Program-made: the position numbers and the translations under genes
The notes under the pieces: model-generated
The model's database searches: none
Seen by the model: only the letters and a program-made list of their open reading frames with translations
Told to the model about the DNA's origin: nothing
Source of the DNA: an uncultured Bacteroidota bacterium
GTDB lineage: Bacteria > Bacteroidota > Bacteroidia > Bacteroidales > WCHB1-69
Direction: 5' to 3'
DNA length: 64,000 nucleotides
NCBI GenBank assembly: GCA_902774175.1
Contig: CACYHG010000001.1
Coordinates: forward strand, 1 to 64,000
Shown here: piece after piece, positions 9,074-64,000 of the stretch
Numbering within the stretch: the stretch's first letter is position 1
Layout: each line of letters begins with the position of its first letter

Positions 9074-9088
9074 AGTGGTTTTTTTTTA

Positions 9089-9236
9089 GAGACGCCATGA
9101 TATGACGTCTTTACTTGAGAGACGCCATGTGGTGACGTCTTTACTTGAGTGACTGAGACGCCATGATATGACGTCTTTACGATGAGACGCCATGTGGTGA
9201 CGTCACTACTGAGACGCCATGAGATGACGTCTTTAC
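9089..9236. repeat. Array of five 26-bp imperfect palindromes
   Basis: Five copies of a 26-bp unit (starts at 9089, 9119, 9155, 9184 and 9211) read GAGACGCCATG, a variable 3-base centre, then TGACGTCTTTAC or a close variant. Spacers are 4, 10, 3 and 1 bp. Centres alternate between ATA-type and TGG-type. Each unit is an imperfect hairpin related to the 28-bp GTAGAGACG family. The last unit runs into the crotonase gene and supplies its stop codon. Confidence 0.88.
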
Positions 9237-10006
9237 TTGTATCGTGGTTTGCGCTTCTCCAGGAAGGCGGTCATGCCCTCCTTCTGATCTTCAGCCAGGA
9301 AGCATTGTGCGAAGTACCTGTTTTCAAGCGCGATGGCATCGTCCATGGGCAGGTCCGCCGATTCCTGGATGCTCCTTTTTGCATACGAGACCGCCACGCG
9401 GCTGTTGGCCATGATGCGGCGAGCCCATTGCAGCGCCTCCTCCATCAGCTGTTCGGCAGGGACCACGGCATTCACCAGCCCCATGCGGTAGGCTTCACTG
9501 GCGTCGATCGTCTTCCCCGTATAGATAAGCTCCTTGGCAAAGGCGGGGCCGACAATTCGTGTAAGCCGCACCGTACCGGAGAAGCCTGGTATGATGCCAA
9601 GCCCCACCTCCGGCTGCCCGAAGCGGGAACGTTCGGAGGTGATGCGCAGGTCACAGGCAAGAGCCAGCTCGCAGCCGCCGCCGAGCGCATAGCCGTTCAT
9701 CACCGCAATCACAGGCACCGGCAGAAGCTCAATCTTTCTGAAGACAGAGGAGCCCAGACGGGCGAACTCCAACGCACCGGCCTCGTCCAGAGGCTGCATT
9801 TCGGAGATGTCCGCACCGGCCACAAAGGCCTTGCTGCCCGCACCGGTGACAAGCAGAACCCGCACTTCGGAGGGAACATGTTGCACAAAATCATCCAGTT
9901 CGCGCAGCATTCCCGAATTCAACGCATTCAGCGACTGCGGCGCGGAGAGGGTCAGCAGCCCTATCCCATCCTCCGGCATGGAGAATTCCAAATATTTGTA
10001 TTCCAT
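9233..10006 (-). CDS. crt: Enoyl-CoA hydratase (crotonase)
   Basis: The protein (257 residues from the ATG at 10004-10006) is a full-length crotonase. It has the oxyanion-hole segment SKAFVAGADISEM, the first acid in LGGGCELALACDLRI, and the second acid in FGQPEVGLGIIPG, so both catalytic Glu residues are present as expected of a hydratase. A GTG six codons upstream would overlap the atoA stop and is an alternative start. It follows atoA directly and should interconvert crotonyl-CoA and 3-hydroxybutyryl-CoA, joining Kal's product to hbd. Confidence 0.9.
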   Translation of the reverse strand: MEYKYLEFSMPEDGIGLLTLSAPQSLNALNSGMLRELDDFVQHVPSEVRVLLVTGAGSKAFVAGADISEMQPLDEAGALEFARLGSSVFRKIELLPVPVIAVMNGYALGGGCELALACDLRITSERSRFGQPEVGLGIIPGFSGTVRLTRIVGPAFAKELIYTGKTIDASEAYRMGLVNAVVPAEQLMEEALQWARRIMANSRVAVSYAKRSIQESADLPMDDAIALENRYFAQCFLAEDQKEGMTAFLEKRKPRYK

Positions 10007-48846: not shown

Positions 48847-50070
48847 TTACATTTTCCTTATCACCAGGGCGCTGTTGGTGCCGCCGAAACCGAAGGAGTT
48901 TGAAAGGACCGTATTGAGCTCCTTTCCTGTCGTGACATTGATTATGTTCAGCTTTTCCGAATACTCGTCCGGCTCCTCAAAATTGATGTTGGGCGCGATA
49001 AAGCCGTTCCGCATCATCAGGATGGAGTAGACAGCCTCACTGGCCCCGGCCATCCAGCACTCGTGTCCGGTCATCGACTTGGTGGAGGAGATTGGCGTTT
49101 GCAGGGGACCGAACAGATTGGCCAGAGCCATGGCCTCGAACATGTCCCCCTGCGGAGTTGAAGTTGCATGCGCATTCACATAATCGATATCCTCCGCACG
49201 CACGCCGGCATCATCCATGGCACGCCGCATAGCCCGCATACAGCCCTCCTCACTGGGCTGGGAAATATGCGGTTCCCCGTTGGAGGAAAAGCCATATCCG
49301 GCAATTTCAGCATATATTTCCGCACCGCGCGCCACCGCATGTTCATAATCCTCAAGAATAAGGGTGGCAGCGCCACCGCCCGGCACCAGACCGTCCCTGT
49401 TCCTGTCAAACGGGCGGGAGGCCTTGGTGGGTTCGTCAGTTCGTACGGAAAAGGCGTTTATGCCGTCGAAACTGCCCATGGAAAGATAATTTGTCTCCTG
49501 GGCGCCACCGCAAATCACCACATCCTGCATACCGTTGCGGATCAGCATTGCGCCCAGTCCGATGGCATGGGAGCCGCTGGCACAGGCCGCGCTGATGGTC
49601 ATGTTTATCCCCTTCAGTCTGAAAATGGTTGAGAGGTTCATTGTGACAGTGGAGTTCATGGACTGAAAAATTGCGGCCGAACCGATCAGCGTGGTGTCCC
49701 TCTTCTCCACAGCAATCTCATGGGAGGTTATCACCGCCTTGGCGGACGAATCGTTACCGAACAGCACACCAACCTCGTTTTTGGCCAGATATTCTTCATC
49801 AATACCGGCCTGCTTCAATGCGGCCAAGGTGGACATGTAGGCATATTCGCCCTCCTCCGCCAGATACATACGTAACTTGCGGTCCAGCAAGCCCTTCAGC
49901 TGGGGCTTTTCAACAATGCCTGTCAAAGGGGAACGGTATCCGTAGGCCACGCGCTCCGGATCAATCCCGATGCCGGACCTGCCCTCCCTGAGAGAGGCGC
50001 ACACAGCATCCAAAGAGGTCCCCAAACAGGACCATATCCCCATACCTGTCACGACCACCCTGCGTCCCAT
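48847..50070 (-). CDS. FabF-type beta-ketoacyl-ACP synthase
   Basis: Starting at MGRRVVVTGMG (ATG 50068-50070) the protein has 407 residues, the usual FabF length. The triad is Cys in TISAACASGSHAIG, His in YVNAHATSTPQGD and His in TKSMTGHECWMAG. A GTG nine codons upstream would overlap the outer-membrane protein gene. It is the KS closest to classical FabF and may feed early extension of the p-coumaroyl starter. Confidence 0.88.
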   Translation of the reverse strand: MGRRVVVTGMGIWSCLGTSLDAVCASLREGRSGIGIDPERVAYGYRSPLTGIVEKPQLKGLLDRKLRMYLAEEGEYAYMSTLAALKQAGIDEEYLAKNEVGVLFGNDSSAKAVITSHEIAVEKRDTTLIGSAAIFQSMNSTVTMNLSTIFRLKGINMTISAACASGSHAIGLGAMLIRNGMQDVVICGGAQETNYLSMGSFDGINAFSVRTDEPTKASRPFDRNRDGLVPGGGAATLILEDYEHAVARGAEIYAEIAGYGFSSNGEPHISQPSEEGCMRAMRRAMDDAGVRAEDIDYVNAHATSTPQGDMFEAMALANLFGPLQTPISSTKSMTGHECWMAGASEAVYSILMMRNGFIAPNINFEEPDEYSEKLNIINVTTGKELNTVLSNSFGFGGTNSALVIRKM

Positions 50071-50090
50071 ATCCGAAAAACTGCCTTTAA

Positions 50091-50639
50091 TTACCACTCA
50101 ATTCCTATGCGCAGCGAAATGCCGGTCGGATCCGCCTCCTTGGGTATCCACTTGGTTATCCGGTTGCCCAGGATGTCATACTCATATTCGCTGGCTTCGT
50201 ATTTGACCTTGTCGAAATAGGAGGCGGCCAACATCAGATTCACAGCGAAATCCCTTTTTGATGCAAAACGGACACCGACTGCCAGATCGGCATATCCGCC
50301 CGTATTGTAGGAAGAGGTGTATGAACCGATACGGACACCGACCACAGGGCTCACCGCCTTCTGATTGGTAAACAGGTAGCGCATTGAGGCATAGAAGGGG
50401 AACAGGTTGAAATCCGTGTTACGCTCAAAACCGACACCGACACCCACATACATGTTTCCGTTAAAATAGAAACCGTGAGTGGTGGAAAGTGAAATTGTGG
50501 AAGAGAGATCCTTGGTGAAATGCCAGCAGTTCCCCTCTTCGAGGAAACCCTGGTAACCGCTCGGCACGCGCACACCCTCCTGCTGCGCATAAGCCGTCAT
50601 CCCGCAGAACAGCGCAATGGTAAACAACAATTTTTTCAT
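50091..50639 (-). CDS. Putative outer-membrane beta-barrel protein
   Basis: The 182-residue protein has a signal peptide (MKKLLFTIALFCGMTAYAQ) and alternating amphipathic strands with aromatic ends (FYFNGNMYVGVGVGFE, DFAVNLMLAASYF, ISLRIGIEW). This fits an 8-stranded porin-like barrel of the type found in Bacteroidota. It is embedded between FabG and FabF genes of the pigment cluster, so a role in anchoring or inserting the pigment in the outer membrane is possible. The start is chosen at the signal peptide Met. Confidence 0.78.
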   Translation of the reverse strand: MKKLLFTIALFCGMTAYAQQEGVRVPSGYQGFLEEGNCWHFTKDLSSTISLSTTHGFYFNGNMYVGVGVGFERNTDFNLFPFYASMRYLFTNQKAVSPVVGVRIGSYTSSYNTGGYADLAVGVRFASKRDFAVNLMLAASYFDKVKYEASEYEYDILGNRITKWIPKEADPTGISLRIGIEW

Positions 50640-50667
50640 GATATCCAGTTTTATGATTTTAAACATT

Positions 50668-51396
50668 TTATGTATACAATCCTCCATTTACGGAGATTAC
50701 TTGTCCTGTTATGTAGGAGGCCTCTGCAGATGCCAGGAAGGAGACCAGCGCGGCCACCTCCTCCGGCTTTCCGAAACGTCCTGCCGGTATCAGCTTCTTC
50801 AGTTCAGCCTCGTTCAAATCCTGTGTCATATCCGTGGCGATGAAACCGGGCGCAACCGCATTCACAGTCACCTTGCGTGCCGCCACCTCCTGTGCAAGAG
50901 CCTTGGTCGCCCCGATAAGCGCGGCCTTTGCCGCCGAATAGTTGCCCTGTCCGGGCAGACCCTTCAGACCGGAGAGCGATGAAATGTTTATGATACGGCC
51001 GTTGCGGTGTGTAAGCATATCCTTCAACAAACGGCGTGTCACATAAAAGAAACCGTTCAGGGTGACATCAAGCACGTTATGCCACTGTTCCCCATTCATG
51101 AAAATCATCAGGTTGTCGGAACGGATGCCGGCATTGTTCACCAGCACGGAGATGTAATCCTCCGCATGGGATTCCGCCCACCGCTCCAAAGACGCCTCAA
51201 TTGCCTTTGGGTCCGACACGTCGAACGGGAGCAGCTCCGCCTTCCCGCCCGCATCCTCAATCTGGCGTTTCACCTCTTCAGCGGCGGCGGTTTGCGAACG
51301 GTAGTTCAACAGCACCGGAAAACCATCCTGCGCCAAACGCAGCGCAACAGCCTTCCCAATCCCGCGCGAAGCGCCTGTCACCAAAGCATACTCCAT
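50668..51396 (-). CDS. 3-oxoacyl-ACP reductase (FabG type)
   Basis: The 242-residue short-chain dehydrogenase has TGASRGIG (residues 7-14), LVNNAGIRSD, the catalytic Ser in INISSLSG, and YSAAK. The VAPGFIATDM segment is typical of FabG. It reduces the beta-keto group in each cycle of polyene extension (ApeQ-like). It lies 3 bp after the ammonia-lyase gene. Confidence 0.92.
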   Translation of the reverse strand: MEYALVTGASRGIGKAVALRLAQDGFPVLLNYRSQTAAAEEVKRQIEDAGGKAELLPFDVSDPKAIEASLERWAESHAEDYISVLVNNAGIRSDNLMIFMNGEQWHNVLDVTLNGFFYVTRRLLKDMLTHRNGRIINISSLSGLKGLPGQGNYSAAKAALIGATKALAQEVAARKVTVNAVAPGFIATDMTQDLNEAELKKLIPAGRFGKPEEVAALVSFLASAEASYITGQVISVNGGLYT

Positions 51397-51399
51397 ACG

Positions 51400-52938
51400 C
51401 TATTTAGTTTTTATCTGATTATTTTTCAAGAAAAGCTCCACTTTGCCTATCTCCTCATAAAAGGGGCTGTCCTCCACAAAGAAGGGCTGTATCTTTCGGA
51501 TTTCATCATATGCCCGCCTTGAGACGGCGCCGATTTTGTCAGCCACCTTCAGGCAGTCGGTGGCCTGCGCCAGGGCAATGTACAGAACTGACATCACTTG
51601 GAAGGCGTTCTCCACCACCGTCCTACAGATCAAGGCCGTATTGGTGCCCATACTGACAATGTCCTGGTTGTCGTTGTTGTTCGGAATACTGTGCACATAA
51701 TTGGGCATGGCCAACGTCTGGCATTCGGCCGTTGTGGAGGTGGCGGTGAACTGGCAGGCCTGCATCCCATAGTTCAGACCAAGGGTGCCTGCGTTCAAAA
51801 ATGGTGGAAGTATGCCGTTTATGCGGTCATGCATAAGATAGTTCAGCTGCCGTTCGGCGATCATGACCAGCCTTACCAGCGCGATTTTGACCTTGTCCTC
51901 CTCCAGGGAGATGTAGTCCCCATGGAAATTGCCGCCGTGGTACACATTGCCCGTTTCCGGATCCACAATCGGATTGTCGCAGGCAGAATTCAGCTCATCT
52001 TCGAGAACCTTACGCGAATTGTAAAGTGTCTCCCACACAGGTCCGAGAATCTGCGGTACACACCGCAGGGAATAATATGCCTGCACCTTTTTGGTGAAAT
52101 ATGACTCCCCTTCGTGGCGGCTGTCATAGAAGGCATGCTCCCGCTTCTGCAGCAGACGGCTCCCCTCAGAAAGCTGCCGCATACGCCCGGCAATCACCTG
52201 CTGCCCCTCGTGACGCCTGCAGACGTTTTCCGGCTCGCTCATGAAATCATCGAACGATGAGGCGATTTCATTAATCCAGACAGAGGCCAGCGTCTCCCAA
52301 TCCAACAGCCGCTCCGCATACATCTGGTTGATTATGCCGATTCCGGTCATCACTGAAGTGCCGTTTGTAAGCGAAAGCCCCTCGCGCACATGCATATGCA
52401 GAGGCTGCAGCCCGTTTTCTGCCAGCACATCGGCCGACGGACGCCACTCGCCCCTGTAATGCACCTTTCCCTCCCCGATAAGGCAGAGTGCGATGTGCGC
52501 CAACTGGACCAGATCACCGCTTGCTCCAACGCTACCGTGCCGGGGCACAAACGGGATGATGTCACGGTTTATGAACTCAACCAGCAGCTGTACAGCCTCC
52601 GGATGGACACCGGAGCGGCACTGCAGCACAGTACCCACACGCGCCATCATCGCCGCCTTGACGCACATGTCGTCCAAAGGCTCGCCGGCACCGCAGGCAT
52701 GGCTACGGATTATGTTGTACTGCAGTTCGGACAAAAAGCGGTCATCCACGCGCCACTGCGCCATGGGGCCGAATCCCGTATTGATTCCGTATATCACCTT
52801 GTCCCTTGAAAAATCCTTCAAAAAAAGATGACAGCGCATAACATCCTCCATGCAAGCCTTGTCCACCGACACAGGCTCGCCATGCACCGCAACCTTCAAG
52901 ACATCGTCAAGACTGATTCTTCCCTTTAACTGCAACAT
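51400..52938 (-). CDS. Tyrosine ammonia-lyase of the HAL/TAL family
   Basis: The 512-residue protein carries the MIO-forming ASG triad (residues 139-141 in HGSVGASGDLVQLAH), Tyr 50 in KVIYGINTGFGPMAQ, and the SIPNNNDNQDIVSMGTN segment near the C-terminus. The selectivity position reads Ser-His (79-80, NIIRSHACG), which by simple rules would mean histidine; however, the overall sequence closely follows, as far as I recall it, the experimentally known tyrosine ammonia-lyase of Flavobacterium johnsoniae (FjTAL), which also has Ser-His. It would make p-coumarate as aryl starter. It is the first gene of the cluster, behind a clear promoter box. Confidence 0.85.
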   Translation of the reverse strand: MLQLKGRISLDDVLKVAVHGEPVSVDKACMEDVMRCHLFLKDFSRDKVIYGINTGFGPMAQWRVDDRFLSELQYNIIRSHACGAGEPLDDMCVKAAMMARVGTVLQCRSGVHPEAVQLLVEFINRDIIPFVPRHGSVGASGDLVQLAHIALCLIGEGKVHYRGEWRPSADVLAENGLQPLHMHVREGLSLTNGTSVMTGIGIINQMYAERLLDWETLASVWINEIASSFDDFMSEPENVCRRHEGQQVIAGRMRQLSEGSRLLQKREHAFYDSRHEGESYFTKKVQAYYSLRCVPQILGPVWETLYNSRKVLEDELNSACDNPIVDPETGNVYHGGNFHGDYISLEEDKVKIALVRLVMIAERQLNYLMHDRINGILPPFLNAGTLGLNYGMQACQFTATSTTAECQTLAMPNYVHSIPNNNDNQDIVSMGTNTALICRTVVENAFQVMSVLYIALAQATDCLKVADKIGAVSRRAYDEIRKIQPFFVEDSPFYEEIGKVELFLKNNQIKTK

Positions 52939-54099: not shown

Positions 54100-55371
54100 T
54101 TATTTGACGCCTTTGTTCCGCTCGTGACGGATAAGATGAGCAGGTTCCAGATTCATGCGCTCGCCCTCAAGAAGGGAGATCACACCGTCCACTGCAGCGT
54201 TGTCCGCCTTCTTTTCAGCCGCCTTGCGGCATTCTGGACACCTGCATGAGCTGTGGTATTCCTCCGGCTCGGTATAGGTGGTGATCACACCCTCGAAATT
54301 GCGGAGCACAACCTTGCCCGGCGCCTGGGAAATGACATACTGCGGCATCACAGGCGTCTTGCCGCCGCCACCAGGCGCATCCACCACAAAGGTGGGCACA
54401 CAGAATCCTGAGGTGTGGCCGCGCAACCCCTCAATGATTTCAATCCCCTTGGAGACCGGCGTGCGGAAATGCTCCAGCCCCTGGGAGAGGTCACACTGGT
54501 AGATATAGTACGGACGCACCCGCATCTTCACCAGCAGATGCACCAGATCGCGCATAACATGCACGCAGTCGTTCACGCCGCGCAGCAGCACGCTCTGGTT
54601 ACCAAGCGGAACACCCGCATCGGCCAGCATCTCACATGCACGCACCGCCTCAGGCGTCACCTCGTTCGGATGGTTGAAATGGGTGTTGAGCCATACCGGA
54701 TGGTATTTTTTCAGCATAGCGCACAATTCCGGCGTGATGCGTTGCGGACAGACGACCGGCGTGCGGCTGCCGATACGGACAATCTCCACATGCGGGATGG
54801 CCCGCAGCCGTCTGATGATGTATTCCAGCTTCTCGTCCCCGACCATCAGCGCATCTCCGCCACTGAGCAGCACGTCGCGCACGCACTCCGTCCTTTCGAT
54901 GTATTCCAACGCCTTCTCAATACGGTCGGAGGTAGACTCGCAGTCCTTCTGGCCCGCAAAACGGCGGCGGGTGCAGTGCCGGCAGTACATCGAGCACATG
55001 TCGGTGATAAGGAACAGCACACGGTCAGGATAGCGGTGGGTAAGGCCGGGGGTCGGCGAATCCTCGTCCTCATGCAGCGGATCGAGCAGATCGGCGGGCG
55101 AAATGTGGGTTTCCGCCGCCGTGGGGATGCACTGCCGCCGGACAGGATCGTCCGGGTCATCGGGATTAATCAGGCTCAGGTAATATGGGGTGATGGCCAT
55201 GCGCAACGTCTCCAGCGACTTGCGAACGCCCTCCTCCTCTTCTGCTGTGAGACGGATGTACTTTTTCAGCTCATCCAGCGTCTCAATGCGGTTCCTGACC
55301 TGCCATTTCCAATTGTTCCATTCCGCATCGGAAACATCCGGGAACAACTGTTTTCTTCTTGATTCAGCCAT
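54100..55371 (-). CDS. kamA: Lysine 2,3-aminomutase
   Basis: The 423-residue protein has the radical SAM cluster CSMYCRHC (Cys 126, 130, 133; the clostridial enzyme has 125, 129, 132) and the PLP-binding lysine in DAPGGGGKTP (Lys 338, equivalent to clostridial Lys 337). Near the C-terminus CRCPECRK supplies cysteines of the structural zinc site. It converts L-lysine to L-beta-lysine, the first step of the fermentation. It follows kdd with a palindromic repeat in the 56-bp gap. Confidence 0.96.
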   Translation of the reverse strand: MAESRRKQLFPDVSDAEWNNWKWQVRNRIETLDELKKYIRLTAEEEEGVRKSLETLRMAITPYYLSLINPDDPDDPVRRQCIPTAAETHISPADLLDPLHEDEDSPTPGLTHRYPDRVLFLITDMCSMYCRHCTRRRFAGQKDCESTSDRIEKALEYIERTECVRDVLLSGGDALMVGDEKLEYIIRRLRAIPHVEIVRIGSRTPVVCPQRITPELCAMLKKYHPVWLNTHFNHPNEVTPEAVRACEMLADAGVPLGNQSVLLRGVNDCVHVMRDLVHLLVKMRVRPYYIYQCDLSQGLEHFRTPVSKGIEIIEGLRGHTSGFCVPTFVVDAPGGGGKTPVMPQYVISQAPGKVVLRNFEGVITTYTEPEEYHSSCRCPECRKAAEKKADNAAVDGVISLLEGERMNLEPAHLIRHERNKGVK

Positions 55372-55388
55372 AAATCATTTTTGTTTAT

Positions 55389-55416
55389 GTAGAGACGCGG
55401 CATGCCGCGTCTCTAC
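55389..55416. repeat. 28-bp palindromic repeat (GTAGAGACG family)
   Basis: A perfect palindrome with core CGGCATGCCG between the kdd stop and the kamA start. It is the only copy of the family in the right half of the window, again in a space between lysine pathway genes. Confidence 0.88.
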
Positions 55417-55427
55417 ACATGTGTTAA

Positions 55428-56501
55428 TTACGCATACAATTCTTCAAAAATTTTGCGCAGTTCCGGAGATTCGCGCAATTCCTGCAGGGTGAATTCGGCA
55501 TGTCCCTTGGTGTAACCGTTGCCCATAATCATGTTCACATCGCTGCCTATGCCTTCGGCCCCGAGGCTTGCCTTGGTGAAGCTGGTGGCCATGCTGAAGA
55601 AATAGACTATGCCGTCATCCTTGGTGCAGAGCACGGCGGTCATCTCCTGATCCGGAACATTCACGCAGTTGATGGTGACATCGGCCATCTTGCCGTCGGT
55701 GAGGCGCTCGACCATTTCATAGACCTGAACCGGAGTCATGCCGGCTGCGCTCTCCACAATGTCGCAGAAGCCGAGATCCTTGATACGCTGGGTGCTCTTG
55801 GGACTGTTGGCGATGCCAATGACCTTGCCGGTCACACCGACTCGCTTTTTGGCCTCATAGCAGCAGAGCATGCCGCTCTTGCCACCGGCACCGAGAATCA
55901 CGACGGTCTGTCCGTACTGGCAGAGTTTGGCGGTCTGGGCGGGGGCTCCGGCCACGTCAAGGGCGCTCAATGCCAACTTTTCAGGCATGTCGGTCGGAAT
56001 CTTGGCATAGATACCGCTCTCGAAGAGGATGGCCTTGCCCTTGATGTCCACCTGGTCAACATCGGGACGGATTTCCAGAATCTCGTCAATGCGCAGCGGA
56101 GTCAGCGAGAGGCTGACAAGCGTGGCGATGCGGTCGCCCTCCTTCAGGTCAATCTTGCCCTTGAGAGCGTCGCCGATCTTCTCGACCTTGCCGAGCAGCA
56201 TGCCGCCAGAGCCGGTACGGCGGTTGCGGTGCTTCCCCTGCAGTTCCACATTGAGGAGCATCTCCTTTTTGACCTCCTCCATGATTTTTTCTTCGCTGGC
56301 GCCTTCGCCCGCCTGCTGTTTGGCGTAGTTGTGGATGTCGGTGAAGGATGCCGAGTCGATATTCAGGGTCTGCACATCGATGAGAATCTCGTTGTCCCAG
56401 ATTTCATCCATATTGTTGTTCAGTTTATTCGCAGGCTGCGGAAGCACGCCTTTCGGTTCAATCACACGATGGGTTCCGTATTTGTTTCCTTTCTTTTGCA
56501 T
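55428..56501 (-). CDS. kdd: L-erythro-3,5-diaminohexanoate dehydrogenase
   Basis: The 357-residue protein matches the size and start (KYGTHRVIEPKGVLPQPA) of Kdd. A Rossmann NAD site is seen in TVVILGAGGKSGMLCCYEA, and VTINCVNVPDQEMTAVL plus GIVYFFSMATSFTKA follow. It oxidatively deaminates 3,5-diaminohexanoate, the product of lysine 5,6-aminomutase, to 5-amino-3-oxohexanoate. It sits between kce and kamA in the usual pathway block. Confidence 0.93.
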   Translation of the reverse strand: MQKKGNKYGTHRVIEPKGVLPQPANKLNNNMDEIWDNEILIDVQTLNIDSASFTDIHNYAKQQAGEGASEEKIMEEVKKEMLLNVELQGKHRNRRTGSGGMLLGKVEKIGDALKGKIDLKEGDRIATLVSLSLTPLRIDEILEIRPDVDQVDIKGKAILFESGIYAKIPTDMPEKLALSALDVAGAPAQTAKLCQYGQTVVILGAGGKSGMLCCYEAKKRVGVTGKVIGIANSPKSTQRIKDLGFCDIVESAAGMTPVQVYEMVERLTDGKMADVTINCVNVPDQEMTAVLCTKDDGIVYFFSMATSFTKASLGAEGIGSDVNMIMGNGYTKGHAEFTLQELRESPELRKIFEELYA

Positions 56502-56533
56502 ATCTTTAATTATTTTTATGTTAATGTATTTAA

Positions 56534-56570
56534 CTATATTCTGACTTCTGTCTTCTGATTTCTATCTTCT
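56534..56570. repeat. AGAAGNC heptad repeats at the end of kce
   Basis: On the minus strand this reads AGAAGAT, AGAAATC, AGAAGAC, AGAAGTC, AGAATAT. The first unit supplies the last two Arg codons and the TAG stop of kce, so the repeat has entered or shaped the 3' end of the gene. Confidence 0.72.
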
Positions 56571-57389
56571 CAACCCCAAAATCTCCCTTGCCTCGTCCGA
56601 AGTGGCAATCGGCCGACCAAGTTCTTGTGCGATGCGCACCACCTTGGCCACCAGTTCACCGTTAGACTTGGCGGGCACTCCCTTGGCAAGATTCAGGTTG
56701 TCCTCGAAGCCGACACGCACATTGCCGCCCATTGCAATGGCAGCAGCGGCCATCGGGAATGCGTGGCGTCCGATACCGGTCACTGTCCAGGTGCTGCCTG
56801 CGGGGATTCCGTTCACCAGCCAGCAGAGGTTGGCCACAGTCGCGGGGGTGCAGCCGGGAACGCCCAGCACGAAATTGAACTGCATCGGGCTGCCGGGGAC
56901 CTCGCCCTTGCGGGCCATGGTCAGCACCGTATCCAGATGCCCCATCTCAAAGCACTCGTACTCCGGCTTGATGCCGCGCTCCATCATCCGCTTGCCGAAG
57001 GCACGCATGGTAGGCATGGTGTTGTCGAAAATCTCGTCCCCAAAATTGCAGGTGCCGCAATCCAGCGTGGCCATTTCAGGCACCGGCGTGGTGTCGGTGG
57101 ACTGCAGCCGCTCATCGGGTGTCATTCCGACCGCGCCTCCAGTGGAGGGGATCAGTATCACGTTCGGGCAGGCCTTGTAGATGGCCTCCTCACACTCCTG
57201 GAAACGGTCGCGGCTCTGGGTCGGTGTACCGTCGTCCCAGCGGACATGCAGATGCACGATGGCCGCACCGGCATCCACCGCCGACCTGGCCTCCCTGACA
57301 ATCTCCTCTACCGTATATGGGACCGCCGGATTCTGCTCCTTGGTCACCTCCGCGCCACAGATGGCGGCGGTAATAATCAGTTTGTCCAT
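56562..57389 (-). CDS. kce: 3-keto-5-aminohexanoate cleavage enzyme
   Basis: The 275-residue TIM-barrel protein has AAICGAEVTKEQNPAVPYT with Glu 14 and the zinc ligands in IVHLHVRWDDG (His 46 and His 48), the same positions as in the characterised Kce. It condenses 3-keto-5-aminohexanoate with acetyl-CoA to give 3-aminobutyryl-CoA and acetoacetate. Its last codons lie in a heptad repeat. Confidence 0.95.
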   Translation of the reverse strand: MDKLIITAAICGAEVTKEQNPAVPYTVEEIVREARSAVDAGAAIVHLHVRWDDGTPTQSRDRFQECEEAIYKACPNVILIPSTGGAVGMTPDERLQSTDTTPVPEMATLDCGTCNFGDEIFDNTMPTMRAFGKRMMERGIKPEYECFEMGHLDTVLTMARKGEVPGSPMQFNFVLGVPGCTPATVANLCWLVNGIPAGSTWTVTGIGRHAFPMAAAAIAMGGNVRVGFEDNLNLAKGVPAKSNGELVAKVVRIAQELGRPIATSDEAREILGLRR

Positions 57390-57416
57390 TTGCTCTCCTT
57401 TTACATTTAATTAATA

Positions 57417-57809
57417 TTAACCCTTGCGCTGGCACTCCTTGAGGGTGACACAGGTACCGGAGGCACGGCATACAAGCACCGGCTCATCCAGCACATCGGC
57501 AGCCGAATCGGAGATATCGGGGCGCGGTGCGATCACCTTGTAGGCCTCAAACTCCATCTTGCGGGAGCTCTTCCCCTCCGAAACAATACGTCCGGTCGCC
57601 TCAATGTAGTCACCGGCATACACGGGAGCCAGAAACTCCACATTGTCGTATGCACGGAAAAGCCCCTCGTCGCCGTCCCGCTGGATCAGCAGCTCTGTGG
57701 CCACGTCACCGAACAGATGGAGCATGTGGGCCCCGTCCACCAGATTGCCCCCGTAATGGGCATCCTTCGCGCTCATGCGCAAACGGATTGTTGATTTGTA
57801 TTCCTTCAT
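57417..57809 (-). CDS. kal: 3-aminobutyryl-CoA ammonia-lyase
   Basis: The 130-residue hotdog protein has the Kal-like start [21 protein letters not shown] (given in part) and [20 protein letters not shown], then [18 protein letters not shown]. It removes ammonia from 3-aminobutyryl-CoA to give crotonyl-CoA. It lies 27 bp before kce in the pathway block. Confidence 0.92.
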
Positions 57810-57854
57810 CTTGACTTTATAATTTAGTTCAAATAGGGTTTCAGGGGGTTAAAA

Positions 57855-57884
57855 CCTTAAACTCTTAAACTCCTTAAACTCTTA
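57855..57884. repeat. TTTAAG-rich tandem repeat after atoD
   Basis: On the minus strand the DNA reads GAGTTTAAG, GAGTTTAAG, AGTTTAAGG with small variations, starting inside the atoD stop codon region. Three units of about 9 bp are present. It resembles simple intergenic repeats seen elsewhere in Bacteroidota; no function is evident. Confidence 0.6.
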
Positions 57885-58538
57885 TCTTTCCACATAAATA
57901 TAGTCCACAAAAATCCCCGATGCATGCACGCATTCCGGCTTGATTTCACCGGCCTTGACCAGTTTTTCAGCCTCTACAACGACCACATCGGCGGCCATGG
58001 CCATCAGCGGGTTGAAGTTGTTGGTGGTGCCAAGGAACACCATGTTGCCCTCCTCGTCCACGATGTTGGCGCGCAGGAATGCGATATCGGCCTTCAAAGG
58101 TTTTTCCAACAGGTAATCCTTGCCGTCCACCTTCACAATCTCCTTGCCGTCGGCGATGATGGTGCCCAAACCGGTCGGGGTAAGAACACCGCCCAGTCCG
58201 GCCCCGTAGGCACGGATGCGCTCGGCCAGAGTGCCCTGCGGCACATATTCCACCTCCAGAGTGCCGGCATTCTTCTGCGCGGCAGTCTCCTTGTTGGTGC
58301 CGGTGTGGGAGACAATGGCCTTTTTCACCTGATGGTTGGCCACAAGTTTTCCATGGGCCACATTGTCGTATGCGGTGTCGTTGGAGATGATGGTCAAATC
58401 TTTAACACCCTTTTCAACCAGAGCATCGGTAATCTGCACCGGACTCCCAACTCCGAGGAACCCGCCGAACATCACCGTCATGCCGTCCCTGACCAGTCCG
58501 GCCGCTTCCTGTAATGTAATCTGCTTTTTCATTGTCAT
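57882..58538 (-). CDS. atoD: Butyryl-CoA:acetoacetate CoA transferase, alpha subunit
   Basis: From the ATG at 58536-58538 the protein has 218 residues, the usual size; an ATG two codons later is equally likely, and a longer frame runs back into the upstream PHP gene without homology. GMTVMFGGFLGVGSPVQIT and LTIISNDTAYDN are typical of class I CoA-transferase A subunits. It pairs with AtoA (10.0 kb). It begins 16 bp after the capsule-related PHP gene, so it could be read from the capsule promoter. Confidence 0.92.
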   Translation of the reverse strand: MTMKKQITLQEAAGLVRDGMTVMFGGFLGVGSPVQITDALVEKGVKDLTIISNDTAYDNVAHGKLVANHQVKKAIVSHTGTNKETAAQKNAGTLEVEYVPQGTLAERIRAYGAGLGGVLTPTGLGTIIADGKEIVKVDGKDYLLEKPLKADIAFLRANIVDEEGNMVFLGTTNNFNPLMAMAADVVVVEAEKLVKAGEIKPECVHASGIFVDYIYVER

Positions 58539-58554
58539 TATATTATCTTTGTTA

Positions 58555-59304
58555 TTATTCCTGTTTGGCGGGCTGTCCGTACAGCTCCGCATTGTTCTCA
58601 TATAACTTGTGCAGCGCATCAATCTGATGGTCACGCAGCCTCATTTCAGGCAACCATTGTGCAAACGTGCTGATTTTGTGCAAGTCGGTGCCGACATAGT
58701 CGTACATTCCTGCATCTAACAGGTAGAGTGCGGTCTCCTTTGCCGGCTTGCCGTAGCCTCCCGCCAAAGAAATCAGGTTCAACTGCAGGAAATATCCGCT
58801 CTCCTTCCAGCGTCCGAAAAGCTCCCTGTCGGCATAGCGGTAACGCTCCGGATGGGCTATCACAACCTGGTTGTCACAGGTGGTCAGCTCATACAGGTAT
58901 TCCTCCATGTCCGGACTCCTGTACATGTAGGAGGTCTCCACAAGCAAAATCTTTTCCTGCGGATTAAGATAGAGCCATCCCTCCTGCTGATGCGAAAGGA
59001 ACTGCTCATCCAGCATGTACTCGGCCGCCAGCCTCGTGGAAAATCCGCACCCGTCCGCCATAGGCAGGAAAGCGTCATACCACTGCACAAGGTTTGGACG
59101 GTTGTTGTCAGCATAGTCCGTCATGACATGAGGGGTAAGTATCAGCTGCCTGAATCCGAGGCCATACAGGTAGTGCAGTCCCTCCATTGTGGCATCTTCC
59201 GTCTGGAATCCGTCATCCACACCCGGCAGCAGGTGGCTGTGCATGTCGGTCGCCCCTTGGAAGAAATCGGCGGGCAGTCTTTTTTTTCGGTCAAACAAGC
59301 CCAT
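58555..59304 (-). CDS. CpsB/YwqE-like PHP-domain protein tyrosine phosphatase
   Basis: The 249-residue protein has the PHP metal-binding start TDMHSHLLPGVDDGFQT, LILTPHVMTDY, VVIAHPERYRYA and YVGTDLHKIST, all with the conserved His/Asp/Glu ligands of CpsB-type phosphatases. Such enzymes dephosphorylate the tyrosine tail of Wzc-like kinases, and the wzc-like gene lies only 12 bp upstream. The ATG is preferred over a TTG two codons earlier. Confidence 0.9.
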   Translation of the reverse strand: MGLFDRKKRLPADFFQGATDMHSHLLPGVDDGFQTEDATMEGLHYLYGLGFRQLILTPHVMTDYADNNRPNLVQWYDAFLPMADGCGFSTRLAAEYMLDEQFLSHQQEGWLYLNPQEKILLVETSYMYRSPDMEEYLYELTTCDNQVVIAHPERYRYADRELFGRWKESGYFLQLNLISLAGGYGKPAKETALYLLDAGMYDYVGTDLHKISTFAQWLPEMRLRDHQIDALHKLYENNAELYGQPAKQE

Positions 59305-59316
59305 TTTCAATACTGT

Positions 59317-61830
59317 TTATTTGTCATGACCATGATCATGATGTCCGTGTTTTTTTGAACCGATACCCATAATCATCAGGATTTTCCTGTTAAACTTGCG
59401 GAGAACGGACATCTGCGCCTGACGCTTGGTCTCCTCATCGTTGCCATAGCCGTATCCATAGCCGTAACCATATCCATAGCCGTAACTGTGCCCGGTACCG
59501 TTGCCGTAGCCATAGCCGTAACCGTAACCATAGCCGTAACCCAGTTTCTTATAATTCACGTCATTCACAATTACGCAGAGTTTCGGGAAACGGTTCTCCT
59601 TGTACATTGTCTCCAAATCGCCCAATGCACGCTTGTCGGTCACGTTGGCGCGGATGACAAACACGGTCAGGTCGGCCAAACGCTTCAGGATGTCCGCATC
59701 AGCCACAATGCCGGCAGGCACCGCATCCAACAGGACATAGTCGTATTGCGGCCGGACCGCCTCAATAAAGGCATCCATGCGGACATTGTCCAGCAGTTCT
59801 GCCGGATTGGGCGGAACAGGACCGGAAAAGATCGCATCCCATCCGGAAGAGATCGCACGGCGTTCTTTCAGCAACTCCTCCAATTCGATTTTGCCGGAAA
59901 GATAGTTGGAAAGCCCATGGTTGTTGGCGTTGGGCAGCTTTTTGTGCAGCGTACCCTTACGGATGTCAGCATCAACCAGGAGTACCCGCTTGCCGGAGGC
60001 GGCGAGCAGCACGGAAAGGTTGGTGGATAGGAACGACTTGCCGCTGTTCGGGAAGAAGGAGGTGAACATGGCCACCTTGCAGCCCGGACGGTCGGTCTTG
60101 ATATAATCCAGATTGGAACGGATAATACGGAACGACTCGGAAATAGAATCGCGGCCGTTCTCCCTTGCCACAATGATGCTGCCCTTCTCCTGCTCGGCAG
60201 TCTGCTTCGGCACATCGCCCAGAATCGGCACGGAACAGCCCTCCTCCACATCACGCTTGCTGTGGATATCGGTATCCATCATCTTGAGCAGGAAGAAAAT
60301 ACCGACCGGAATGGCCAGGCCAAGCACAATGGCCACAAGGAAAATCATGGAGGTGCGCGGTTTGGTGGGCGAAGTGGAACCGTCCGCCGCGTCAATCACC
60401 CGCACATCGTCCTCCAATGCCGCCTTGGAGAGTGACAGCTCCTCACGACGGTTCAGCAGGAACAGGTACAGGCTCTGCTTGACCGACTCCTGCCTCGACA
60501 TTGAGGTGAGGTAGTTCTGGTGCTCCGGTACCGCCTGTACCTTGCTGCCAGCCTGGTTCTCCAACTGTCGGCTACGGGTCAACTGCTGCTTAAGGTTAGC
60601 GCGTAGGGCAGCCAGCGTACTGGAGACCCCCTCCTTCAGAATCTGCAGGCTGGCGTTGATCTCCTTGGTCATAGGGTTGCTAGCTGTGTTACCTTTGGTC
60701 TCCATTTTTTGTTTTTGCAACAACGTGGTATTGTATTCGGAGATGACCGAAGCCAGCTGCGGATCCTTAAGCCCCATTTCCGCCGGCACCAGTTTGTAGT
60801 CATCCTTCATGCCGTTGACAAAGTCGGCCAGATAGTCCACCATGGATAGCTTGTTTTCCAGCACCTCGCGTTCCTGCATGTATTCGTCGCTGCGACGCAG
60901 GTAGTCCTGGCCATAGCTGCCGACATCGATAAGCCGATTGTTCCGCATAAATGAGGCCTTACCCGATTCCATCACCCCAAGATCCTGGTCTAATTCTGTA
61001 ATCCGGGCATTGATGAAAATGAGGCTCTGGTCAAGCACCATTGCCTTGTCCTTAACCGCCTCCTCGCGGTATATCTGCACAAGCGTGTTCAGGATGTCCT
61101 CCGCCTTGTCTCCGGAAGGATCCTCCAAAGATAGGCTGACCGCATTGGAAAGTTTGTCAACCCGTGCGATACGCACCGCCGTTCGGTAACGCTTTGTAAC
61201 CGACTTGATGTTACGCTTGTCCACCTGGATCTCCTTGCCTGCATAGGAGGTATAGGTCCAGGTCGGTATCACGACCACCCTGCCGACCGGAGTGTTCACC
61301 GTGTCGTTGAGCGGGGCGGATATGACCTTTTTCGAATCGGGGAAATTCTTGAGGATGACCCGACCGCCCTGTTTGGACGGCACCACAGTCAGGCTGATGT
61401 TCGAATACGGCCCCTCATCAGGAAACTGCACATGCACCGGACTGTTGCTGTAGAGGTCGGTTTTGCGCAGCAGCGGCGTATAGCTGTATTCCACGCCGAG
61501 GTTCAGACGCTCCACCACCTGCATCATCAGTGTGCGGGACCTGAGAATCTGCAGTTCGTTTTCCACAGCGGAAGAGCCACTCATGCTCAATAAGTTACTG
61601 GAGACCAACAAATCACTGGCACTCCCCTTTTTGTCCTTGAACATGACGGTGGCCGTCCGGCTGTAATACTTGACTGATGACTTGGAGACCAGCAGGGCGA
61701 CAGCAATGCAGACCAGCAGGGAAAGGGCGAACCATCTCCAATGGCTGAGCAGTGTGTAGAGCAAATCCTTCAAGTTGATGGATGTTGTCTCTTCGGGCTG
61801 TTGCGACTGTGTTTTTTGATACTTTTCCAT
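59317..61830 (-). CDS. Wzc-like polysaccharide copolymerase and tyrosine autokinase
   Basis: The 837-residue protein has TM1 near residues 33-49 and TM2 near 495-515 around a periplasmic, coiled-coil Wzz-type domain, then a cytoplasmic BY-kinase with Walker A PNSGKS (594-599), Walker A' LLVDADIRKG (617-626) and Walker B YVLLDAVPAG (699-708). After the kinase comes a Gly-Tyr tract (764-796) with 13 tyrosines and an 11-residue His-rich end (KKHGHHDHGHDK). It should control capsule or exopolysaccharide chain length with the Wza-like protein, and the tyrosine tail is the expected autophosphorylation site. The PHP phosphatase encoded next would reverse this. Confidence 0.92.
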   Translation of the reverse strand: MEKYQKTQSQQPEETTSINLKDLLYTLLSHWRWFALSLLVCIAVALLVSKSSVKYYSRTATVMFKDKKGSASDLLVSSNLLSMSGSSAVENELQILRSRTLMMQVVERLNLGVEYSYTPLLRKTDLYSNSPVHVQFPDEGPYSNISLTVVPSKQGGRVILKNFPDSKKVISAPLNDTVNTPVGRVVVIPTWTYTSYAGKEIQVDKRNIKSVTKRYRTAVRIARVDKLSNAVSLSLEDPSGDKAEDILNTLVQIYREEAVKDKAMVLDQSLIFINARITELDQDLGVMESGKASFMRNNRLIDVGSYGQDYLRRSDEYMQEREVLENKLSMVDYLADFVNGMKDDYKLVPAEMGLKDPQLASVISEYNTTLLQKQKMETKGNTASNPMTKEINASLQILKEGVSSTLAALRANLKQQLTRSRQLENQAGSKVQAVPEHQNYLTSMSRQESVKQSLYLFLLNRREELSLSKAALEDDVRVIDAADGSTSPTKPRTSMIFLVAIVLGLAIPVGIFFLLKMMDTDIHSKRDVEEGCSVPILGDVPKQTAEQEKGSIIVARENGRDSISESFRIIRSNLDYIKTDRPGCKVAMFTSFFPNSGKSFLSTNLSVLLAASGKRVLLVDADIRKGTLHKKLPNANNHGLSNYLSGKIELEELLKERRAISSGWDAIFSGPVPPNPAELLDNVRMDAFIEAVRPQYDYVLLDAVPAGIVADADILKRLADLTVFVIRANVTDKRALGDLETMYKENRFPKLCVIVNDVNYKKLGYGYGYGYGYGYGNGTGHSYGYGYGYGYGYGYGNDEETKRQAQMSVLRKFNRKILMIMGIGSKKHGHHDHGHDK
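59443..59541 (-). repeat. Hexanucleotide repeat encoding a (Gly-Tyr)n tail
   Basis: About 16 degenerate 6-bp units (GGNTAY on the minus strand) encode two Gly-Tyr runs of 6 and 7 tyrosines, split by NGTGHS. The unit length of six keeps the frame if copies are gained or lost, so tail length could vary between strains without breaking the protein. Confidence 0.9.
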
Positions 61831-61840
61831 AAAAAATCTA

Positions 61841-62647
61841 TTATTTTGGAGTTGCTAAAGTGATGATAAGGGTTACAATGGATATGAGCGAAGTTGTCAG
61901 CGAAGCATAGCTGGCTATCCACGAGGCGTTTTCCTTTATGCGGCTGGCGCGCAAAGGTTCAAGAAGCACTACATCGTTCTGCTGCAGCAGGAAGTACGGG
62001 TCATTGAAGACATCCTTCGACTTGAGGTTGAGGTAGCGCAGATGCATCCGGCCTCCCTCCTCACGCAGCACACCCACCTTGTCCAGCCTGGTGTATGCGG
62101 AGATGTTGCCCGATTGGGAAAGGGCCTCCAGCAGGGTCACGCGCTCGTTGGTCACTGTAACCGTATGGGAGCCGGTGGCGCTTTTTATATATATCTTGTA
62201 GTTTTTGAAACGTACCAACACCACGACCTCCTCCAGATAGCCGCCATTGATAAGCATTCTCGTAATGGTGTCCTGCAGCTGCAGGCGGGTCATACCCTCA
62301 ACATGGATGGCCCCCAAACTCGGCATGTTGATGTATCCGTTGATGTCCACCAGATAACCGATGGTGTTTTCCGGATTCAGGGAACTATAGCTGCTGCCTG
62401 TGTTTTTATTGTAGGTGCTCACCAGATTGAACGGGTCGGACATTCCCCTGTCACCGGACGAAGTTATGTAGATGGTCAGCTCGTCATTGGGATGGATACG
62501 CGCCTCATATGAATTGTCCAACACTACCGTCGAATCATGCGGCAAATCCTGAAGATAGGTGATGTCCTTGTGTGTGACACAAGAGGGTAAAAGCGCCGCA
62601 ATTAGAAACGCGACACATGACAATCTGAAAAAAGACCATTTGTTCAT
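61841..62647 (-). CDS. Wza-like polysaccharide export lipoprotein
   Basis: The 268-residue protein has a lipoprotein signal ending LLPSCVTHKD (lipidated Cys at 23), then the poly-export motif SYEARIHPNDELTIYIT and two SLBB-like segments (GYINMPSLGAIHVEGMTRLQ and LLEALSQSGNISAYTRLDKV, quoted in part). A C-terminal hydrophobic helix (LTTSLISIVTLIITLA) may be the outer-membrane anchor. It lies 10 bp before the wzc-like gene and should form the outer export channel with it. Confidence 0.92.
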   Translation of the reverse strand: MNKWSFFRLSCVAFLIAALLPSCVTHKDITYLQDLPHDSTVVLDNSYEARIHPNDELTIYITSSGDRGMSDPFNLVSTYNKNTGSSYSSLNPENTIGYLVDINGYINMPSLGAIHVEGMTRLQLQDTITRMLINGGYLEEVVVLVRFKNYKIYIKSATGSHTVTVTNERVTLLEALSQSGNISAYTRLDKVGVLREEGGRMHLRYLNLKSKDVFNDPYFLLQQNDVVLLEPLRASRIKENASWIASYASLTTSLISIVTLIITLATPK

Positions 62648-62652
62648 ATTCG

Positions 62653-64000
62653 TTATTCTTTTATTGTTTCATTTTGAGCAGAATCCTGCGGCGCATTGTC
62701 CAGCACCGAGAAACGGCTGTTATTACTTACAAATTCAGGCACAAGCGCCTTCATCTGCGACACAATCGCAAATTCATCCTGAGAAAGCAGTGCCTTGTGC
62801 AGCGCATCGAATGCGGCAACGACCGTATCCGGATCCTGCGGACGGACCTTTGCCCGGAAAATCTTTCCATGCACTGTAGGAAGCGTGTCCTCCTTGGAGG
62901 CAAGCAGCTCCTCATACAGCTTTTCTCCCGGACGCAGACCAATCTCCTTAATTTTAACGTCATTGCGGCCTGAAAGCCGGATCATCTTGGCGGCCAGGTC
63001 ATATATTTTCACCGGCTTGCCCATGTCAAAGACAAAAATCTCGCCCCCATTTGCGATGGCGGCAGCCTGCAGCACCAGGTTGCAGGCCTCCGGAATGGTC
63101 ATGAAATAACGGGTTATGCGCTTGTCGGTCACCGTAAGAGGACCGCCGTTTTCCAGCTGCTTCTTGAACAATGGCACAACCGAGCCATTGGAACCCAACA
63201 CATTACCAAACCTTGTCGTGACAAACTGGGTCTCCGAGCGACGACTCTGCACATATATCTCGGCAATCCGTTTGGTCGCCCCCATGACATTGGTGGGATT
63301 CACAGCCTTGTCGGTGGAAATCATGACCATCTTCTGCACATGATACCGGATTGAAAGATCCGCCATCAACTTGGTGCCAAACACATTGGCCCTCACCGCC
63401 TCATAAGGGGAATCCTCCATCAGCGGGACATGCTTGTACGCGGCAGCGTGGAACACCACCTCGGGACGGTATTTGTCGAACAGCCTCTCCATGCGGTCCG
63501 AATCACGGACATCCGCCACTTCGAAGAAAAGCCTGTCCCTGTTTTTCGCATACGTGTTGTTCAGCTCGAACTGGATGTCATATACCGGTGATTCGCCCAT
63601 ATCGACCACCACCAGTTTTGACGGCTCATAGTTCATCACCTGCCGGGCAATCTCGCTGCCGATACTGCCGGCGGCTCCAGTGACCATCACAACCTTGTCA
63701 TGGATTTCACGGGAAATATCCTCGTTTTCCAATACAATCGGATCGCGACCCAACAAGTCTTCAATCTGTATATCTTTGATTTGATTGGACTTCATCTGCC
63801 CTTCAATCAGTTCGTAGACATGCGGGATAATCTTGACCCTCAGGTTCAATGCCAAAGCCTGCTCCGCAAGTTTGTTCTTAACCTCCACACTAAGTGAGGG
63901 AATCGCAATTATCAACACCTCGATGCCATGCCGACGGATATAACTGTCACACATGACTTTTGAGGGAAGCATCACCGGCACGCCCTGTATTTCCGAACCT
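62653..64000 (-). CDS. CapD/FlaA1-like nucleotide-sugar 4,6-dehydratase, 5' end outside the window
   Basis: The frame stays open to the right edge of the window, so the N-terminal membrane part is missing here. What is present is the end of the CoA-binding-like domain and a full epimerase/dehydratase domain: VMVTGAAGSIGSEIARQ (NAD loop), FHAAAYKHVPLMED, and MISTDKAVNPTNVMGATKR with Met replacing the usual Tyr of the catalytic motif, as in PglF/WbpM. LRPGEKLYEELL follows. It is predicted to convert UDP-GlcNAc (or a close relative) to a 4-keto-6-deoxy sugar for capsule or glycan synthesis. Confidence 0.92.
   Translation of the reverse strand, partial: GSEIQGVPVMLPSKVMCDSYIRRHGIEVLIIAIPSLSVEVKNKLAEQALALNLRVKIIPHVYELIEGQMKSNQIKDIQIEDLLGRDPIVLENEDISREIHDKVVMVTGAAGSIGSEIARQVMNYEPSKLVVVDMGESPVYDIQFELNNTYAKNRDRLFFEVADVRDSDRMERLFDKYRPEVVFHAAAYKHVPLMEDSPYEAVRANVFGTKLMADLSIRYHVQKMVMISTDKAVNPTNVMGATKRIAEIYVQSRRSETQFVTTRFGNVLGSNGSVVPLFKKQLENGGPLTVTDKRITRYFMTIPEACNLVLQAAAIANGGEIFVFDMGKPVKIYDLAAKMIRLSGRNDVKIKEIGLRPGEKLYEELLASKEDTLPTVHGKIFRAKVRPQDPDTVVAAFDALHKALLSQDEFAIVSQMKALVPEFVSNNSRFSVLDNAPQDSAQNETIKE

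Follow-up and report, generated by a model that had tools for sequence, protein, structure and literature searches.

A Wzc-like tyrosine autokinase of an uncultured Bacteroidales bacterium with a Gly-Tyr-repeat tail as its probable phospho-acceptor track

The window, i.e., the whole stretch of DNA that was analysed, comprised 64,000 nucleotides from an uncultured bacterium of the order Bacteroidales (contig CACYHG010000001.1). Near its end, four genes were found on the reverse strand in the order dehydratase/epimerase, Wza-like exporter, kinase and PHP phosphatase (Table 1). The kinase gene lay 10 bases downstream of the exporter gene, and the phosphatase gene began 6 bases past the kinase stop codon; its product was probably the cognate tyrosine phosphatase of the kinase. 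In Porphyromonas gingivalis, a Wza-like gene is located 6 bp upstream of ptk1 and a capsule gene downstream (PMC4082711), php1 directly follows ptk1 (PMC8863745), and the Ptk1 protein autophosphorylates (PMC4082711, PMC8863745). The layout in the window, with the Wza-like gene upstream and the PHP phosphatase downstream, was the order described for ptk1, and this was taken as support for the function proposed below.

Table 1. Positions of the kinase, its neighbouring genes and the segments of its tail in the window.
Feature	Positions	Strand	Basis
Polysaccharide biosynthesis nucleotide-sugar dehydratase/epimerase, extends past window edge	62653..63999	(-)	PF02719 E 2.5e-117
Wza-like outer-membrane polysaccharide export protein	61841..62647	(-)	PF02563 E 2.2e-14
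BY-kinase/polysaccharide co-polymerase (PCP-2a, Wzc-like), 837 aa	59317..61830	(-)	Pfam, TIGR01007, Wzc structure matches
Walker A region FFPNSGKS, residues 592-599	60034..60057	(-)	Translation and alignment
Gly-Tyr block 1, (GY)6, residues 764-775	59506..59541	(-)	Translation, pattern match
Break GNGTGH, residues 776-781, disrupts Y-x-Y register	59488..59505	(-)	Translation
Gly-Tyr block 2, SY(GY)6, residues 782-795	59446..59487	(-)	Translation
Acidic then basic stretch, predicted helix, residues 798-820	59371..59439	(-)	AlphaFold2 at pLDDT <50; helical moment 0.65, z 1.56
His-rich C-terminus KKHGHHDHGHDK, residues 826-837	59320..59355	(-)	Translation
CpsB/CapC-type PHP phosphatase, probable cognate tyrosine phosphatase	58555..59310	(-)	PF19567 E 9.5e-26

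Other features of the window were recorded on the way. A gene row on the reverse strand at 54100-58634 resembled lysine fermentation by its Pfam content (a lysine 2,3-aminomutase-like radical SAM protein, a dehydrogenase, a BKACE enzyme, a thioesterase-fold protein and a CoA-transferase subunit). At 48847-52938, also on the reverse strand, genes for a ketoacyl synthase, a FabG-like reductase and an aromatic amino acid ammonia-lyase adjoined each other and may be part of an aryl polyene or flexirubin-like pigment cluster. Tandem Repeats Finder reported a 30-base repeat of five imperfect copies at 9088-9239.

The kinase carried a Wzz region (Pfam, residues 17-108), a GNVR region (438-515) and a P-loop kinase domain (AAA_31, 596-709) on one chain, each scoring above its gathering score. 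The TIGR01007 model (polysaccharide biosynthesis tyrosine autokinase) matched with 143.9 bits against a cutoff of 108.05, and the top PDB matches were cryo-EM chains of Wzc (7NHR, E 5.7e-49). Translation and alignment located the following motifs: Walker A with the core PNSGKS, Walker A' as DADIR (residues 620-624, within VDADIRKG), Walker B at Asp702 within VLLDAVP, which fitted the DX2P form quoted in PMC5260027, and the oligomerisation motif EX2RX2R as ESFRIIR (residues 565-571). The first-pass annotation had called this protein a Wzc-like kinase, and the domains, the TIGR01007 score, the structure matches and the motifs confirmed it. The residues forming the tyrosine pocket of Wzc were compared in a phmmer alignment. 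The equivalent of P645 was a conserved proline; the site of E675 was aligned with alanine, with acidic residues a few positions on. The missing clear counterpart of this glutamate is a point against the proposal made below, although the pocket may still be conserved.

The segment 59317-59541 encoded residues 764-837 and the stop codon. The C-terminus was read as LGYGYGYGYGYGYG-NGTGH-SYGYGYGYGYGYGYG, holding 13 tyrosines between residues 765 and 795, followed by an acidic and then basic helix-like stretch and by KKHGHHDHGHDK; residues 763-837 together were LGYGYGYGYGYGYGNGTGHSYGYGYGYGYGYGYGNDEETKRQAQMSVLRKFNRKILMIMGIGSKKHGHHDHGHDK. The gaps between successive tyrosines were 2,2,2,2,2,8,2,2,2,2,2,2, i.e., six tyrosines, the break GNGTGHS and seven tyrosines, so that the Y-x-Y rule was violated once. 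The second block was strictly Ser-Tyr followed by (Gly-Tyr)6. The translation thus agreed with the initial description of the tail as 13 tyrosines in Gly-Tyr units of 6 and 7, a basic helix-like part and a His-rich end. A stretch similar to the break, NNGAGH, was present near the tail start in a sister species (L003/L008), where the tail held 11 tyrosines in total and the kinase and tail region was 80% identical to that of the window. An AlphaFold2 model of the kinase, built from a two-row alignment with an overall pLDDT of 43.8, drew a helix over the acidic and basic stretch (model residues 269-291); at this confidence the model was of no help in judging the function of the tail.

Tails of this kind were found to be common. 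The same genome encoded a second BY-kinase (L002, G000:C3:23275-25740), 40% identical to the first, with (GY)14 and the end KKKHSHHHHTTE; two other species of the genus had Gly-Tyr runs of 10, 11 and 16 units, and other genera of the family had RYGY or KYGY tails. Of 393 genomes sampled from across the order, 191 contained the DNA pattern (GGNTAY)5. Its occurrence was far above chance, since the reversed pattern had no match in nearly all of the 393 genomes. Loci were fetched from the pattern-positive genomes of the order and from two further sets, mostly from different families, and yielded 97 distinct BY-kinase ORFs, in which the longest run counted 6-17 units. Only three non-kinase ORFs had at least 4 units: two were the same broken kinase fragment at an assembly gap, and one was an unrelated protein. 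The pattern also extended to other orders and, rarely, to other classes: in a sample of the phylum, 16 of the 28 other genomes of the class and 4 of the 89 outside it contained it, and all 20 other loci fetched from this sample were kinases. Hence, the initial view that the tail was atypical did not hold for Bacteroidales, and a tail unique to one strain was rejected, given the (GY)14 paralogue and the order- and phylum-wide occurrence. The window protein sits well within the BY-kinase family as a normal representative, and its tail is of a type that many genomes of the order share.

Two sets of loci deserve separate mention. The kinases L172-L174, from outside the class, had long Gly-Tyr runs, and that of L172 was encoded by nine identical GGCTAT units; clean repeats therefore exist elsewhere in the phylum. 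At L006/L007 (G001:C51) the Gly-Tyr array of a paralogue was cut by unread assembly bases, which made the apparent frameshift and the array length unreliable there.

The spacing of tyrosines was compared with that in shuffled tails. In 95 (GY)n tails, 76% of tyrosines had another tyrosine at position i-2, against 18% after shuffling. In 26 tails lacking (GY)4 the share was 54% against 18%; the residue between was Gly, Arg or Lys, with Arg or Lys often taking the place of Gly. As the i-2 tyrosine was retained when Gly was replaced, the conserved feature was Y-x-Y rather than glycine.

This spacing has a known role in E. coli Wzc. There, the tail enters the active site of a neighbouring subunit and the i-2 tyrosine fills a pocket, Asn at the i-2 position disorders the tail, and the authors proposed YxY as a ratchet leading to C-to-N phosphorylation; how far phosphorylation proceeds determines the stability of the octamer and the production of capsule (PMC11986026, PMC8285477). 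The octamer dissociates after about four phosphorylations (PMC11986026). Every step of a (GY)n tail conforms to this i-2 rule of Wzc.

We proposed that the window kinase is a Wzc-type capsule or exopolysaccharide co-polymerase autokinase with the Gly-Tyr tail as its phospho-acceptor ratchet track, and we consider this reading as a whole to be likely. The kinase would act from an operon with the Wza-like exporter and the PHP-type tyrosine phosphatase, and the tail would be its own phospho-acceptor, probably a long track of phosphorylation sites read stepwise. With strict Y-x-Y spacing, the i-2 tyrosine could occupy the waiting pocket for any tyrosine under phosphorylation; from this, C-to-N phosphorylation one step at a time was proposed. 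Accumulated phosphates would dissolve the ring, the phosphatase would reset it, and this cycling would drive polymerisation and export. The break GNGTGHS would separate 7 steps of the track from the other 6, and we infer that it may pause the ratchet. Between species, the number of units would drift within a permissive range of about 6-17. The family, gene neighbours, spacing, spread and number variation belong to the present data, while the ring, tail insertion, ratchet and cycling come from the papers on E. coli Wzc, and it is by analogy with them that we infer a Wzc-like mode of action. Some observations count against the proposal. Thirteen sites are more than the model of about four phosphorylations needs, and the tail runs ~40 residues past its last tyrosine, unlike that of Wzc. 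A literature search of partial coverage found no report of phosphorylation for the window kinase or any (GY)n tail.

The number of units varied between close relatives. Of 16 kinase pairs whose kinase domains were 85% or more identical, 13 differed in unit number (mean difference 1.75 units over all 16); with one genome per species, this was variation between species. In one genus outside the family, 6 to 11 units were found in near-identical surroundings. The changes between close species were in whole units and in frame. Such differences, together with run lengths spread over 6-17 units, would fit an exact number of no importance, where enough Y-x-Y steps suffice and neutral drift moves the number between a lower limit and a ceiling. 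This explanation deals with the number alone and can hold alongside a phospho-acceptor ratchet. It agrees with the finding that no single tyrosine is essential in E. coli Wzc, where the extent of phosphorylation matters (PMC8285477, PMC11986026), and with the similar tyrosine totals of RYGY/KYGY and Gly-Tyr tails, ~14 per 75 residues in both groups. However, the same similarity of mean totals across tail types hints that the total is not free, and the lower limit was set artificially by the five-unit search pattern. We regard neutral drift of the number as quite possible, if somewhat short of probable. It was also speculated that in the long uniform Y-x-Y tracks of Bacteroidota (6-17 steps and more) evolution can adjust the step number and thereby set how long the octamer lasts and, through this, how long the polymer becomes, with scrambled synonymous codons stopping slippage within a population; this appears unlikely.

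The DNA encoding the tail of the window kinase was far from a uniform hexanucleotide repeat. The 6 units of block 1 comprised 3 different hexamers and the 6 of block 2 comprised 4, only one of ten neighbouring hexamer pairs was identical, and with 3-4 hexamer types per block a long run of identical short units was absent. Tandem Repeats Finder gave 68% and 75% matches at periods 6 and 18, respectively. Across 99 arrays, identical adjacent hexamers were depleted (149 of 904 pairs against 217.9 expected from shuffling units within arrays, z -6.0). The deficit was seen at the wobble positions of both Gly (z -8.4) and Tyr (z -4.65) codons, and also in two further sets, mostly of one array per family (z -3.5 and -3.0). 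The arrays mixed about four hexamers and one of the 99 was pure. A small control spoke against a general codon effect behind the depletion: Gly-x-Gly pairs outside the arrays showed no deficit (74 of 202 against 65.9 expected).

One tRNA normally reads both Tyr codons, TAC and TAT. Therefore, tRNA use does not readily account for the alternation between them, and a cause at the DNA level is indicated, which might be selection against perfect repeats or their loss through instability. Interruptions are known from human data to stabilise microsatellites (PMC4102424). Unit identities at lags 2 and 4 were in excess in the full set, with lag 2 not in excess in one subset; duplication in 12-base steps, which likewise produces alternating units, is therefore a further possible cause.

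These data bear on the earlier suggestion that the tract is a slippage-driven contingency repeat, in which differences between strains in the number of tyrosines adjust the length of the capsule chains. Of that suggestion, the change of unit number without a frameshift was retained, as such changes do separate close species, while the slippage-prone hexanucleotide repeat was not. Neighbouring units were identical less often than by chance, the opposite of what fresh hexamer slippage leaves, the arrays were blends of hexamers, and Gly-x-Gly elsewhere had no such deficit. Clean hexanucleotide slippage was thus rejected on unit composition and neighbour depletion. One pair of loci (L040/L041) cut both ways: the flanking DNA was 96.5% identical, with third-base differences in 9% of shared codons, but in the arrays just 2 of 10 units matched in register, most differing by synonymous codons. 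This mismatch would suggest, for one pair of draft assemblies, that arrays may turn over quickly, in favour of a contingency repeat, but both arrays had kept the same number of units, 10. Overall, a contingency repeat was judged to be improbable.

Beyond the last tyrosine, the tails shared some general properties. The last 18 residues were net basic in 81% of the tails of the set. The helical moment after the last GY unit slightly exceeded that of shuffled tails (mean z 0.57, s.e. 0.13; -0.52 at a control angle), which weakly suggests an amphipathic helix near the tail end. Five of the 6 tails of the genus had His-rich ends, as did one other fetched tail, that of the distant L128, while most other fetched tails had one or no histidine at the end. 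Being nearly restricted to one genus, the His-rich end was regarded as a lineage trait and not a part of the Wzc mechanism. The six histidines and Asp-flanked spacing within 12 residues might still bind metal, regulating the kinase or supplying the adjacent metal-dependent PHP phosphatase, and the flank of L128 did contain a similar PHP gene. However, the His-rich paralogues L002, L005 and L006 showed no PHP gene in the examined flanks, L003 had the PHP gene and lacked a His-rich end, and nearly all other fetched tails lacked such an end too. A strict tie between the His-rich end and the PHP gene was rejected accordingly, and a metal-binding role is very doubtful. Separately, L128, whose tail had a six-His run, and L146 were distant Gly-Tyr-tailed kinases with PHP phosphatase genes strongly similar to that of the window (E 3e-70 and 4e-59).

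Finally, it is highly improbable that the tract is mainly a sticky low-complexity segment for self-association or kinase clustering, as its Gly/Tyr composition alone and its length beyond the 10-20 residues quoted for BY-kinase clusters (PMC5260027) might suggest, since it sits exactly at the position of the BY-kinase acceptor cluster and tails with charged residues between the tyrosines retain the spacing.

What is new here is how widely Gly-Tyr tails occur, that they fit the Y-x-Y ratchet, and that their synonymous codons are scrambled, which speaks against a hexanucleotide contingency locus. The literature search, partial in coverage, found no paper on kinases with Gly-Tyr (YGYGYGYG) tails and none on such a tail in Bacteroidetes BY-kinases. 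The related kinases, with every tyrosine in Y-x-Y and 6 to 17 units, form a ready-made natural test series for asking whether the number of ratchet steps sets the lifetime of the Wzc ring and the length of the polysaccharide, a question that E. coli Wzc mutants with five sites can address only in part.

Among known systems, the window kinase resembled Wzc of E. coli K30/K-12 (a PCP-2a BY-kinase; PDB 7NHR, 3LA6) in its Wzz-type periplasmic part, GNVR region, Walker-motif BY-kinase domain, C-terminal tyrosine tail with Y-x-Y spacing and Wza-like partner gene. It differed in having 13 tyrosines in two GY blocks rather than ~5 acceptor tyrosines near the very end, in the ~40 residues that follow these blocks and include a helix-like basic segment and the His-rich end, and in a phosphatase of the PHP type at the locus instead of the Wzb type. 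With Ptk1 of P. gingivalis (PGN_1524) it shared the upstream Wza-like gene, the downstream PHP phosphatase gene (Php1) and a C-terminal Tyr-rich cluster. Ptk1 is an autokinase by experiment (PMC4082711, PMC8863745), and 6 autophosphorylated tyrosines in 16 residues have been reported for it, against 13 tyrosines in 31 residues in the window kinase. The second kinase of the same genome, L002, was alike in architecture, Gly-Tyr tail and His-rich end, but its (GY)14 was uninterrupted and the examined flank contained no PHP phosphatase gene.
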